Shown here: positions 3,445 through 29,662 of the stretch, in pieces | Layout of the letters: every line of letters starts with the position of its first letter | How positions within the stretch are numbered: the first letter of the stretch is position 1 | Source: Nitrospinota bacterium | GTDB taxonomy: Bacteria > UBA8248 | Reading direction: 5' to 3' | Length of the DNA stretch: 36,820 nt | Assembly: GCA_002685755.1 (NCBI GenBank) | Contig: NYYB01000157.1 | Location: 1-36,820, forward strand | The notes under the pieces: generated by a model | What the model saw: only the letters and a program-made list of their open reading frames with translations | Told to the model about the DNA's origin: nothing | Databases searched by the model: none | Made by a program: the position numbers and the translations under genes

Positions 3445-4623
3445 ATGGCGAAGGCGAAGTTTGAGCGGACAAAGCCGCACGTGAACGTAGGGACGATCGG
3501 ACACGTTGACCATGGTAAGACAACGCTGACGGCGGCGATCACGAAGCGTCTTGCCGAGTCGGGCGGCGCCGAGGAGGTGGCGTTCGACGAGATAGACAAG
3601 GCTCCCGAGGAGCGCGAGCGCGGGATAACGATAGCGACGGCGCACGTCGAGTACGAGACGGGTAACCGCCACTATGCGCACGTGGATTGTCCGGGACACG
3701 CCGACTACGTGAAGAACATGATCACGGGTGCGGCGCAGATGGACGGAGCGATCCTGGTGGTCTCGGCCGCCGACGGCCCGATGCCCCAGACGAGGGAGCA
3801 CATCCTGCTTGCGCGTCAGGTGGGGGTTCCGAGCATCGTTGTCTACATGAACAAGGTTGACATGGTCGACGACGAGGAGTTGCTGGACCTGGTTGAGCTC
3901 GAGGTCAGGGAGTTGCTCTCGGACTACGATTTTCCGGGCGACGACATCCCGGTTGTGCGCGGCTCGGCGCTCCAGGCGCTCGAGGGCACGGCGCCCGAGA
4001 GCGTGGACGAGTTGATGACGGAGGTTGACGAATATATTCCCGAGCCGGTTAGGGACGTGGACAAGCCGTTCCTGATGCCGGTCGAGGACGTGTTCTCGAT
4101 CTCAGGCCGGGGGACGGTGGCGACGGGCCGGGTCGATCGGGGGATCATCAACGTTGGCGACGACGTTGAGATCGTGGGGATCAACGATACGGCCAAGACG
4201 GTGGCGACGGGCGTGGAGATGTTCCGCAAGCTTCTGGACCAGGGCCAGGCGGGCGACAACGTCGGGATACTGCTCCGGGGCACGAAGAAAGACGAGATCG
4301 AGCGGGGCCAGGTGCTGGCGGCTCCGGGCTCGATCAAGCCGGCAACGCAGTTCAAGTGCGAGGTCTACATCCTGAAGAAAGAAGAGGGCGGCCGCCATAC
4401 GCCGTTTTTCAACGGCTACCGGCCTCAGTTTTATTTCCGCACGACGGACGTAACGGGCTCGGTGGTTCTTCCCGAGGGCCGTGAGATGGTGATGCCCGGC
4501 GACAACGTTTCGATGGACGTGTCGTTGATCCAGCCCATCGCGATGGAGCGCGAGCTTCGCTTCGCGATCCGCGAGGGCGGGCGCACGGTGGGCGCCGGCG
4601 TCGTCACCGAAGTGACCGAGTAG
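3445..4623 (+). CDS. tuf: Translation elongation factor Tu
   Basis: EF-Tu delivers aminoacyl-tRNA to the ribosome as a GTP ternary complex. The 392 residues match family length. G1 is GHVDHGKT at residues 19-26, G3 is DCPGHADY with the catalytic His, and G4 is NKVD. Domains 2 and 3 are complete, including [13 protein letters not shown] and the C-terminal [15 protein letters not shown]. The start is fixed by AAGGAGA 10 nt upstream. As the last str gene it precedes rpsJ by only 35 nt. A second tuf copy elsewhere in the genome is common but cannot be seen here. Confidence 0.98.
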
Positions 4624-18517: not shown

Positions 18518-18598
18518 CTCGCGCGGAACCTGCCGCGAGCCGGAAGGTGGCTATCGGGGGTTCGAGTGGCGAAGTCGCCCAATGGAGGGGCAGTTTTC

Positions 18599-19615
18599 AT
18601 GACTTTGTACGCGGATTTGGTAAAACCAGTCAGTCTCGAAACGGAAAAGGAAAGTTTGACCGGCACTTTCGGTCAATTCGTAGCTGAGCCGCTTGAGCGC
18701 GGCTATGCGACCACGCTGGGAAATGCGCTCCGCCGGGTGATTTTGTCCTCGCTGAGGGGCGCCGCGTTCTCCGCGGTCCGAATCGAAGGGGTCTTTCATG
18801 AATTCTCCACGATTTCGGGGGTCCTGGAAGATGTAACGGACATCATTTTGAACCTGAAAGAGGTCGTCATCCGGATGGACTCAGCCGAGCCTGCCCGGGT
18901 TGCCTACCGGCACAGCGGTACGGCCGGGGAATTCAAGGCGGGCGATTTGGAATGTCCTCCGGGAATCGAGGTTCTGAATCCGGATGTTCATATCGCCACG
19001 ATGAACGAGGAAGCGAGCCTCGACATTGAGTTGATCGTTCGGGTCGGGAGGGGATATGTTCCGGCCGAGCGCAACGCCGAGGAGATGCAACTGGGTCCCC
19101 AGTTCATCCCGATGGATTCAGCCTATTCGCCGGTCCGGCGCTGTGCCTACAGGGTGGATAAGACCCGCGTGGGGGACGTGACCGACTACGACAAGCTCAT
19201 TTTGGAGGTGGAGACGAACGGAACGATCGCCCCGGTTGACGCCGTGGCGCACGCGGCGAAAATCCTGAATGACAACCTCCGGATTTTCATTAATTTCGAG
19301 GAAGAGGAAGAGCCGGCTCCCGTGCAGGAGGTTGATGAGCGGCGCCAGAAGCTCGTCGAAAACCTTCGCCGTAGCGTTGAGGAGCTTGAGCTTTCCGTGC
19401 GGAGTTACAACTGTCTGAAAAACGCCCGCATCCGCACGCTCGCCGAATTGGTGCAGCGCTCCGAGGGCGAAATGCTCAAAACGCGGAATTTCGGGCGAAA
19501 GAGCTTGAACGAGATTCGGGATATTTTGATTACCATGGGCCTTACGTTCGGGATGGATTTTGTCCAGCTCAAGGTGACGTCTGAAGAACTCGGCCTGACC
19601 GGGGATGAGGAATAG
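18599..19615 (+). CDS. rpoA: RNA polymerase alpha subunit
   Basis: Alpha dimerises to scaffold RNA polymerase, and its C-terminal domain binds UP elements and activators. The N-terminal domain has [20 protein letters not shown]. The CTD (about 265-330) contains [15 protein letters not shown], keeping the Arg equivalent to E. coli Arg265, and the [15 protein letters not shown] helix. I place the start at ATG 18599 (338 residues), 8 nt after GGAGGGG (18584-18590); an in-frame GTG at 18566 would add 11 unusual residues. Confidence 0.97.
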
Positions 19616-20167: not shown

Positions 20168-20596
20168 ATGTCAGCGGAAAGAGGAAGACCGGACGCGAAT
20201 TCGTGCTTTGTTTGCGGGACGGACAACACGATTGGCCTGAAAATTAATTTTCGACTCGAGGGGGAGGTTTGCCGGGCGGAGTTTACGCCGGAATCCGCCC
20301 ACCAGGGCTACGACGGCGTCACCCACGGTGGAATTCTCTACAGCCTCCTCGACGATGTCATGGCGAACTGCCTCTTTCTCCGTGGAATCCAGGCCTACAC
20401 CGCGAAATGCCAGATTCGCTACCGCGATCCCGTGCCGGTGGGAACGCCGCTGCGCGTGGAGGGTCGCCAGATAAAAGAAAAGGGTGGGTTCGCGATTCTC
20501 GAAGGGCGGGTCATGCGGGCCGCCGACGGGGCTGTCGTGGCCGAGGCGGAAAGTACATTCTTCCTACTGGGAATCAACGAAGGAGCGCCATCATGA
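20168..20596 (+). CDS. Hot-dog fold thioesterase, PaaI/4HBT-like
   Basis: This 142-residue protein has the hot-dog signature HQGYDGVTHGGILYSLLDD around residues 45-63, with His53, the Gly-Gly turn and acidic residues 62-63 as expected of acyl-CoA thioesterases. The family hydrolyses acyl- or aryl-CoA thioesters in the cytoplasm. An N-terminal Cys13-x2-Cys16 (CFVCG) is common in this subgroup. GAGGG lies close to the ATG. Its stop overlaps the ald start as ATGA, so the two form a coupled pair. Substrate unknown. Confidence 0.85.
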   Translation: MSAERGRPDANSCFVCGTDNTIGLKINFRLEGEVCRAEFTPESAHQGYDGVTHGGILYSLLDDVMANCLFLRGIQAYTAKCQIRYRDPVPVGTPLRVEGRQIKEKGGFAILEGRVMRAADGAVVAEAESTFFLLGINEGAPS

Positions 20597-21704
20597 TCGT
20601 GGGTGTACCGAAGGAAATCAAAAAAGACGAATACCGCATCGCGCTCGCCCCCGCCGCCGCCGAGGCCCTTACGGCCGCCGGCCATTCCGTTCTGATCCAA
20701 AAGGGTGCGGGTCAGGGCGCCGGCATCGAGGACCACGCGTACACCGATGTCGGCGCGAAAATTGTCCCCGGAGCGGACGCCCTTTGGCGACGGAGCGAAA
20801 TGATCGTCAAAGTGAAGGAGCCCCTTCGGCCCGAATTCGACAAAATGCGCGAGGGCCAGATAATTTTCACGTTCCTCCCCCTCGCCGCCGCAAAACCGCT
20901 TGCCCGTGCCCTGATGCGGAAGCGGGTCCAGGCGGTGGCCTTCGAGACCGTCCGGACGGCGAACGGCGCTCTTCCGCTGCTGCAGCCCATGAGCGAAATA
21001 GCGGACCGCATGGCCGTTCAGGAGGGGGCGCGTTTCCTCGAAAAACCATGGGCGGGCGCGGCGTCCTGCTCGCCGGAGCGCCTGGCGTTCCCCGGGGAAA
21101 CGTCGTGATACTCGGGGCGGGGATGGTCGGAAAAAACGCGGCCAAGATAGCTGTCGGCCTCGGGGCCGGGGTCACCGTCCTCGATATCGACCACAACCGG
21201 CTTCAGTACCTCGACGACATCTTCGGCGGGCGGGTGAAGACCATCGCCTCGACGCGCTTTACCATCCGCGAGGCCGTTCAGGAGGCCGACCTCGTCGTGG
21301 GTGCGGTTCTGGTGCCGGGCGCTCGGGCCCCGAACCTCGTTCCCCGCGGCCTTGTCGGGAGGATGCTCCCCGGCTCGGTTCTTGTGGACGTGGCGGTGGA
21401 CCAGGGTGGTTGTGTCGAGACCATCAAGCCGACCTATCACTCGAAGCCCACCTATGTGGTGGACAGTGTTATCCACTATGGCGTGGCAAACATGCCCGGG
21501 GGCGTGCCGCGGACGAGCACGTTCGCCCTCTCGAGCGCGATTCTCCCGTATGTCGTCGAACTGGCCGGGATGGGAGTGAAAGAGGCGGTTTGCGCACATC
21601 CAGAGCTGGCCGAGGGCGTCAACGTCGTCGCCGGGCGGATCACTCATCCCGCCGTCGCCGAAGCCCTCGGAGTAAAGCCCACGCCTCTGAGCGAAGTGTT
21701 GTAA
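20593..21704 (+). pseudogene. ald: Alanine dehydrogenase, frameshifted and missing catalytic His96
   Basis: Ald reversibly deaminates L-alanine to pyruvate with NAD+. The N-terminal half opens MIVGVPKEIKKDEYRIAL and the C-terminal half ([49 protein letters not shown]) is a typical Rossmann domain, but they lie in different frames. The break is at an A5 run (21041-21045): reading goes off frame after FLEKP and hits a stop at 21108, while [13 protein letters not shown] resumes in the -1 frame. One extra base restores a 370-residue protein, the family length. Arg15 and Lys75 are kept, but position 96, the catalytic His in FTYLHLA, is Pro (FTFLPLA). It could be a pseudogene, a sequencing error on a divergent paralogue, or both. 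Confidence 0.85.
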
Positions 21705-25605: not shown

Positions 25606-26012
25606 GCGATTTCCACCATCTGTTGCCCGGCTGTCACTTTGTCGCCTTTGCTGACATGAACGGCTTTAACGGTTCCGCTCACCTCGGCGGTAATAACACT
25701 TTCCATTTTCATCGCCTCGAGGACGAGCAACTTATCGCCGGTGTTCACCGAATCTCCCACGGAGACATCGACGGAAAGAACTGTCCCCGGAATTTGCGCG
25801 AGGACGCTCCCTCCTCCTCCGGAGCCGGCCGAAGGCGGAGGCGGGGCCGCGGGTCGCGGACCGGCTGTGGGCCGCGGAGCTTCCTCCTCTTCAATTTCGA
25901 CCGAGTGCGCATCTCCGTCCACCGTGATACTGAGGCGAGCCGGGTCCGACGCGTCCCGATCGGCGGTAATTTCATAGCTCTTTCCGCCGATGGTAATTTT
26001 GAATTTTTTCAA
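25602..26012 (-). CDS. Biotin carrier protein of the acyl-CoA decarboxylase
   Basis: A 136-residue biotinyl protein. A short N-terminal domain (1-45) is followed by a Pro/Ala/Gly-rich flexible linker (45-68) and a biotinyl-lipoyl domain with LEAMKMES; Lys102 is the predicted biotinylation site. It shuttles CO2 from the carboxyltransferase to the membrane beta subunit. Start is TTG, 5 nt after GGAGG and overlapping the upstream stop as TTGA. Confidence 0.92.
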
Positions 26013-26326
26013 CCCCGCCTCCTCGAAAACACTCTCCCTGAACGGGCGCTGCGGGCCCAGCCGGTGGCGCCGCCCCTCCTTACTTCTGGTATGAATACGT
26101 CGGCCCCCTCGGTTTCGATGAAATATCCCGCCGCGGCGGCAAGGACGAGCGGGAGATCGCCCCCCCCCTCGGCCGGGCCAGGAATCGCTGCTGGAGCCTC
26201 CTCGGCAGGATTCTCCGAAAAGAACCGGTTCAGGATGCGAATGACGTACATCAACGCGATGAGGGAGAAAAAGACCACCCCCATCCCGAGGATCGTTAAT
26301 TCAATCGCGTTACGGAGCAGTGGCAA
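26009..26326 (-). CDS. OadG/MmdD-like small membrane subunit
   Basis: A 105-residue protein with one transmembrane helix near residues 8-30 (ELTILGMGVVFFSLIALMYVI), then a Pro/Ala/Glu linker and a soluble tail with DLPLVLAAAAGYFIE. This is the layout of the gamma/delta subunit that holds the decarboxylase together. It begins with TTG behind GAGGA. The tail ends in an Arg-rich stretch. The linker is coded by a run of nine C on the + strand (26160-26168), a possible indel hotspot, but the frame reads through sensibly. Confidence 0.85.
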   Translation of the reverse strand: MPLLRNAIELTILGMGVVFFSLIALMYVIRILNRFFSENPAEEAPAAIPGPAEGGGDLPLVLAAAAGYFIETEGADVFIPEVRRGGATGWARSARSGRVFSRRRG

Positions 26327-29241: not shown

Positions 29242-29269
29242 TTGGAATTTTACACTTTACTTGTATATG
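29242..29269 (+). promoter_or_regulatory. Candidate promoter for the PilZ gene in an AT-rich spacer
   Basis: TTGGAA (29242-29247) and TATATG (29264-29269) are 16 nt apart. A perfect TATAAT also occurs at 29221-29226 but lacks a good -35. The 286-nt spacer (29029-29314) between the divergent lyase and PilZ genes is markedly AT-rich and contains no gene. Confidence 0.35.
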
Positions 29270-29314
29270 CTTTTACCATGATTCTCTTCACGAAAATTCT
29301 GCGGAGTTCGGCCC

Positions 29315-29662
29315 ATGAGTGATGGCTCAGAGAAACGCCAGCATACCCGGTACAAACTGCCGGTTTTGATTGAGGCTCCTGATATCGCCAATGACTGGCT
29401 GAGGCCGGTTGATGTCAGCATGGGCGGTTTTATGGTCAATGTGCCCGACTAGCCCAAGGTGGGATTGATCAGCGAGTGCGCCATTCGGATACAGGATAAG
29501 GTTTTTACCTGTAAAGTAACCGTGGTGTGGGTGAAAGAGGATCTATCCGAGGACCCTCTCTCTTGGAATCTGGGCCTATGGTTCAAAATGCCCGAAGATA
29601 GCGAGGAAGAATTCGAAACGGCGGTCCACACCGTCCGTTCCGACATGAAAGAGAACGATTGA
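29315..29662 (+). pseudogene. PilZ-domain protein interrupted by an in-frame TAG
   Basis: From the ATG at 29315 the frame gives MSDGSEKRQHTRYKLPVLIE, with the c-di-GMP-binding RxxxR (Arg8-Arg12) and the DVSMGGF motif, up to TAG at 29450-29452 (codon 46). The same frame then continues without a break as PKVGLISECAIRIQDKVFTCKVTVVWVKED...WNLGLWF, the rest of a PilZ beta-barrel, to a TGA at 29660. Removing one nonsense codon gives a normal 115-residue protein. TAG is an ordinary terminator in this genome (rpsL, rpsG, tuf, rplF), so global recoding is unlikely. CGGAG lies before the ATG. Confidence 0.8.

Follow-up and report, generated by a model that had tools for sequence, protein, structure and literature searches.

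The interrupted PilZ gene and its setting

The window analysed here is a stretch of 36,820 bases (bases 1–36820 of contig C34, 39,589 bases) from an uncultured Nitrospinota bacterium represented by a metagenome bin of 2.43 Mb, 208 contigs and 70.3% completeness. Between a divergent HMGL-like gene on one side and a convergent phosphoribosyltransferase gene on the other, it contains a frame of 115 codons that ends with TGA and is interrupted once, by a TAG at codon 46 (Table 1). The first-pass annotation had described this frame as a PilZ gene with one amber codon interrupting it, open on both sides of it and with both c-di-GMP motifs in front of it, and each of these statements holds. No other stop is present in the frame, and its translation, with an X at the position of the stop, matches PF07238 over residues 6–99 with 33.3 bits, above the curated threshold of 22.5. 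The RxxxR (residues 8–12) and DxSxxG (residues 33–38) motifs both precede the TAG. Taken separately, the 45 codons before the stop (hereafter the head) reach 13.3 bits against PF07238, under the cut-off, and the codons behind it (the tail) give no match up to E = 1.

Table 1. Position of the features of the PilZ locus in the window.
Feature	Positions	Strand	Basis
PilZ frame, one internal TAG, final TGA	29315–29662	+	Translation; PF07238 match with X at the stop
RxxxR motif, codons 8–12	29336–29350	+	Translation; motif named in PMC3131395
DxSxxG motif, codons 33–38	29411–29428	+	Translation; motif named in PMC3131395
Head, codons 1–45, constrained on its own lineage	29315–29449	+	No own-lineage nonsynonymous change; omega = 1 rejected (2ΔlnL 11.6); 1/114 simulations as extreme
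Internal TAG, codon 46	29450–29452	+	Glu codon in 4/4 same-genus orthologs
Tail, codons 47–115, released on its own lineage	29453–29659	+	Own omega 1.29 vs background 0.148; 24/207 differences from the sister genome, upstream intergenic DNA 30/284
Mechanical downstream ORF, GTG start, 67 amino acids, the only obvious restart	29459–29662	+	ORF list
11-mer TTGTATATGCT, possible promoter part	29261–29271	+	Aligned, identical in 5/5 same-genus genomes

The RNA structure predicted around the TAG has a z-score of -0.94, and a scan for promoters and terminators returned 3 and 1 sites, respectively, the averages over shuffled sequences being 1.0 and 1.0. For the intact ortholog of the sister genome (G001), a sequence search of the PDB up to E = 1 returned no chain, and the structural model, built from 3 sequences only, was poor (pLDDT 52.7).

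Orthologs and the codon at the position of the stop

With the PilZ protein as query, 98 genomes, including the one under study, were searched, and 81 matches were obtained, distributed over 10 of them. In the four other members of the genus, the top match spans the position of the stop with 86, 79, 68 and 58% identity, and none of the four is interrupted, so the frame cannot be put down to chance. The HMGL-like gene adjoins the PilZ gene in all four genomes as well, which supports orthology. At codon 46 these orthologs read GAG, GAG, GAA and GAG, that is Glu in every case, one of the three residues (Lys, Gln or Glu) that had been expected there. The closest of the genomes compared is the sister G001, 95.6% identical to the genome under study over 15.5 kb.

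TAG as a stop codon

The interruption of an otherwise open frame by TAG, with 69 codons open behind it, could be explained by read-through or suppression of the codon, by means of a suppressor tRNA or of pyrrolysine, with production of a full-length PilZ protein. A CheY-like gene that shares an in-frame TAG between the genome under study and a contig of the sister bin points the same way. In known systems of amber read-through an in-frame TAG is likewise followed by an open frame. Their further hallmarks differ from what we found. Among 40 hand-picked frames of the window, TAG is the stop of 15, TGA of 14 and TAA of 11, and the frames ended by TAG include those of EF-Tu (3445–4623) and RpoA (18566–19615). 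The earlier reading, which stated that TAG ends many essential genes here, had judged wholesale recoding implausible, and our data support this judgement. RF1 is intact in this genome (515 bits, cut-off 423). PylS exceeded its cut-off in none of the five genus genomes, the bin under study being 70% complete, and in one of 14 control genomes. Below the cut-off, each genome has two matches located in long open frames, which we take as other class II synthetases. No match to PylD was detected in the 70% complete bin. A CUA anticodon was absent from the 15 tRNAs detected in this bin, a negative of little weight because the bin is incomplete, and from the 42 that were read out of 43 found in G001. 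A pattern of the tRNA-Pyl anticodon arm, with up to two mismatches allowed, gave 31 + 33 matches against 32 + 23 in the control, and ARAGORN predicted no tRNA in the three loci that matched the pattern with one mismatch. Pyrrolysine insertion and amber suppression were rejected on the intact RF1 and on the lack, in the bins searched, of a PylS above the cut-off, of PylD and of a CUA tRNA. In PilZ genes interrupted elsewhere in the genus, TAA and TGA occur as well as TAG, the relatives encode Glu at the position concerned, and the tail is not conserved, whereas useful read-through would keep a frame constrained before as well as behind the stop (see below). Taking all of this into account, we consider the production of a full-length protein by read-through extremely improbable.

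Loss of constraint behind the stop

Selection on the two parts of the gene was compared with a codon model of five taxa with common branch lengths, comprising the HMGL gene (305 codons), the head (45 codons) and codons 47–113 of the tail (67 codons). Freeing omega of the tail on the lineage under study (hereafter the own lineage) raised lnL from -4020.01 to -4009.93 (2ΔlnL 20.2), with an own-tail omega of 1.29 against a background of 0.148. None of 120 simulations under the null gave a value as large as the observed one, the largest being 11.3. An omega fixed at 1 fits as well as the free estimate (lnL -4010.11), and the profile interval of the latter is about 0.5–2.8. When head and tail were both left free on this lineage, their omegas were 0.0 and 1.23 (lnL -4009.21). 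The best change point of omega lies at codon 52, and codons 32–67 are all within 3 lnL units of it, a range that includes the TAG. With each branch taken in turn as foreground and two free omegas, 2ΔlnL was 21.6 for the own branch, 15.6 for G004 (tail omega 0.034), 4.3 for G001 (tail omega 0.62), 2.4 for G002 and 1.8 for G003; the deviation on branches other than the own one counts against the reading of the tail as released.

The same picture emerges from the raw differences with G001. The tail differs at 24/207 sites, about as much as the adjacent intergenic DNA (30/284 and 7/84), the corresponding values being 5/135 for the head, 32/918 for the HMGL gene and 25/519 for the phosphoribosyltransferase gene; two intergenic stretches located farther away are less diverged than the tail (15/213 and 55/867). 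Once polarised with G002, the tail sites that changed on the own lineage are 8 nonsynonymous and 2 synonymous. On the G001 lineage there are 2 nonsynonymous and 4 synonymous changes in the tail, and 2 and 1 in the head. Another 8 tail sites are in three states. As for residues, 9 of the tail are private to the genome under study, 1 is private to G001 and 3 are three-state. Three of the nine private residues (D76, D80 and M92) equal those of G004, and most of the replacements are conservative, both of which count against a release. The comparison of G001 with G002 gives an omega of 0.04 for codons 47–92, but of 0.16 for codons 47–113. Taken alone, the own and sister tail omegas (1.23 vs 0.28) differ marginally (2ΔlnL 3.45, p about 0.06). 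A high pairwise omega by itself proves nothing, because the OAD gamma frame at 26009–26326, which has no lesion, reaches 0.67 against the sister genome, the highest value of the frames compared, and exceeds the 0.43 of the tail.

If a released tail evolves with omega 1 and a constrained one with 0.15, an average of at least 0.5 would mean that the tail evolved freely along some 40% or more of the own branch. Neither further stops nor indels were found in it, so the earlier claim that no other decay is visible holds for such lesions and fails for the pattern of substitutions. Their lack is hardly surprising, since only a dozen or so substitutions appear to have accumulated. The downstream ORF that starts at GTG behind the stop has no support as a gene, because it lies in this unconstrained part. 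The first-pass annotation had also concluded that the mutation is recent, an error or suppressed; since each of these three would predict a constrained tail and the tail drifts, we regard a very recent origin, an error and a useful read-through as unlikely.

An error deserves a closer look, as the sequence comes from a metagenome bin in which the TAG could stem from the assembly, from base calling or from a minority strain, the gene itself being intact. In the same window, the alanine dehydrogenase gene is shifted by one base in an A run at about 21040 with both of its parts constrained, suggesting an error or a recent lesion. An intact PilZ gene, however, would not have diverged like intergenic DNA precisely in the part that follows the TAG, and an erroneous TAG is decidedly improbable.

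The tail could also have changed fast in some other way, through adaptive change or through exchange with another lineage or paralog, the stop being a later event. The estimate of omega is above 1 (with the interval given above), as this explanation would have it, and the three private residues shared with G004 are in its favour. On the other hand, an omega of 1 fits equally well, and the low number of polarised synonymous tail sites on the own lineage argues against an import from a distant source. Among the 186 loci compared, a set that includes part of the paralogs of this genome, the near matches of the tail are orthologs only, beyond which there is one match of 44 bases (E 1.5e-4), and none of these loci supports a paralog as the donor of the tail by gene conversion. 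Such a fast change of the tail ahead of the stop is quite unlikely in our view.

Conservation of the head

The head has remained conserved. Its changes on the own lineage, polarised with G002, are 0 nonsynonymous and 2 synonymous, and the profile interval of its omega runs from 0 to about 0.28. Fixing this omega at 1 was rejected (lnL -4014.99, 2ΔlnL 11.6), as was the equality of head and tail omegas (lnL -4015.90 when tied, vs -4009.21 when both are free), and 1 of 114 null simulations was as extreme as the observed head. Loss of constraint, as is expected of a pseudogene, thus does not extend over the whole gene. This conservation could stem from a short product that is still used, or from chance in a stretch of 45 codons.

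Upstream of the gene, the 11-mer TTGTATATGCT, 44–54 bases before the PilZ start, is identical in the five genomes, in a region whose surrounding intergenic DNA shows about 10% divergence from the sister genome. It occurs twice in the genome under study, the only other copy being at G000:C104:1203-1213. Since the 11-mer is the same in all five genomes, transcription of the gene may continue.

These data raise the possibility that the head is itself the product that was kept, namely a peptide of 45 residues with both c-di-GMP motifs that could, for instance, sequester the ligand as a sink or pair with a second PilZ chain, the tail having been discarded. The lack of amino-acid changes in the head, the rejection of both neutral and shared omegas and the unchanged 11-mer are in favour of such a peptide. 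On the other hand, the head comprises 45 codons only, and if the stop is younger than the release of the tail, then the conservation of the head is uninformative on the peptide. A solved PilZ structure (PMC3131395) is a six-stranded barrel with DxSxxG at the turn between beta2 and beta3; on this basis most of the strands that follow should be missing from the head, which would then be unlikely to fold on its own. We consider it unlikely that selection maintained a mini-PilZ of 45 residues, with both motifs and an incomplete barrel, as the remainder of the gene drifted until it diverged like intergenic DNA.

A probable truncation of one of many PilZ paralogs

We propose that the TAG is a real, lineage-specific nonsense mutation that truncated one of many small PilZ paralogs, the gene being by now partly decayed. 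From the sequence comparisons, we assign this reading a probability of roughly 75%. Translation would start normally and be terminated by RF1 at codon 46, releasing a product of at most 45 residues that should carry both c-di-GMP motifs and lack most strands of the PilZ barrel. The stop would have caused the release of the tail, which, for a considerable share of the period after this lineage and the sister parted, would have gone untranslated or served no purpose, and would now drift about as fast as local intergenic DNA. The cell would have coped without the full-length protein, probably thanks to other PilZ-like loci in its genome that may be redundant with it: 11 loci of this genome, including the gene itself, match the PilZ protein, and 7 match PF07238.

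With regard to known systems, the frame resembles single-domain PilZ proteins (PF07238) in its RxxxR and DxSxxG motifs and in its score with X at the stop, and differs from them in being cut at codon 46, with a predicted product without most of the barrel. The single nonsense codon, the intact orthologs, the released tail and the paralogs in the same genome are all features of bacterial nonsense pseudogenes, unlike which the head is here constrained on its own lineage. Most likely, this is an ordinary kind of real stop, the conserved head being its odd feature. On this reading, a case suspected of recoding or read-through becomes an event of gene loss with some time depth, and a cheap test is gained: a stop within a frame is probably genuine and takes effect if the sequence that follows it diverges in the manner of intergenic DNA close by. 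The head, if functional, would be an unusually small candidate c-di-GMP binder. In the literature we found no work on c-di-GMP in Nitrospinota and nothing on truncated proteins kept under selection.

Other interrupted genes

In the search with the PilZ protein, 4 of the 49 matches in the genus, including the gene described here, are interrupted, and none of the 32 in the sister genus; with PF07238 the numbers are 1/38 and 0/36. Stops are also present in at least five response regulators among the matches listed, of 191 in all, and in none of the 38 GGDEF matches. Four other PilZ genes of the genus contain a single in-frame stop, namely G002:C152 (TAG), G001:C227 (TAA), G004:C229 (TGA) and G004:C203 (TAG, in a cyclase-PilZ frame). 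Those of G001:C227 and G004:C229 are mutual closest relatives among the loci compared, and are interrupted by different stops at different places. The genome under study possesses an uninterrupted relative (L136) of G002:C152, with 88% identity. That several PilZ genes here carry private stops hints that c-di-GMP receptors turn over fast in this genus; an excess relative to other families is not established by these counts. Another PilZ-like match of this genome, G000:C58:1629-1883, is without its first 22 residues in frame, perhaps owing to a shifted or decayed start.

The TAG shared by the CheY-like genes mentioned above lies in G000:C155:220-555 and G001:C243:6082-6417, and the relatives G001:C41 and G003:C78 have Gln at this position. 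Behind the TAG, the stretch compared differs between the two by 1 synonymous and 0 amino-acid differences, too few to test. The sister bin has two versions of this locus, G001:C243 and G001:C41, which are 97.8% and 88.8% identical to that of the genome under study, respectively; this bin, listed as 8% contaminated, may mix species.

The alanine dehydrogenase gene (about 20593–21704) is distributed over two frames, 20269–21108 with the N-terminal domain and 20484–21704 with the C-terminal domain. It differs from that of the sister genome by one base in the length of the A run, and the sister frame is whole. The omegas of the two parts are 0.11 and 0.24.
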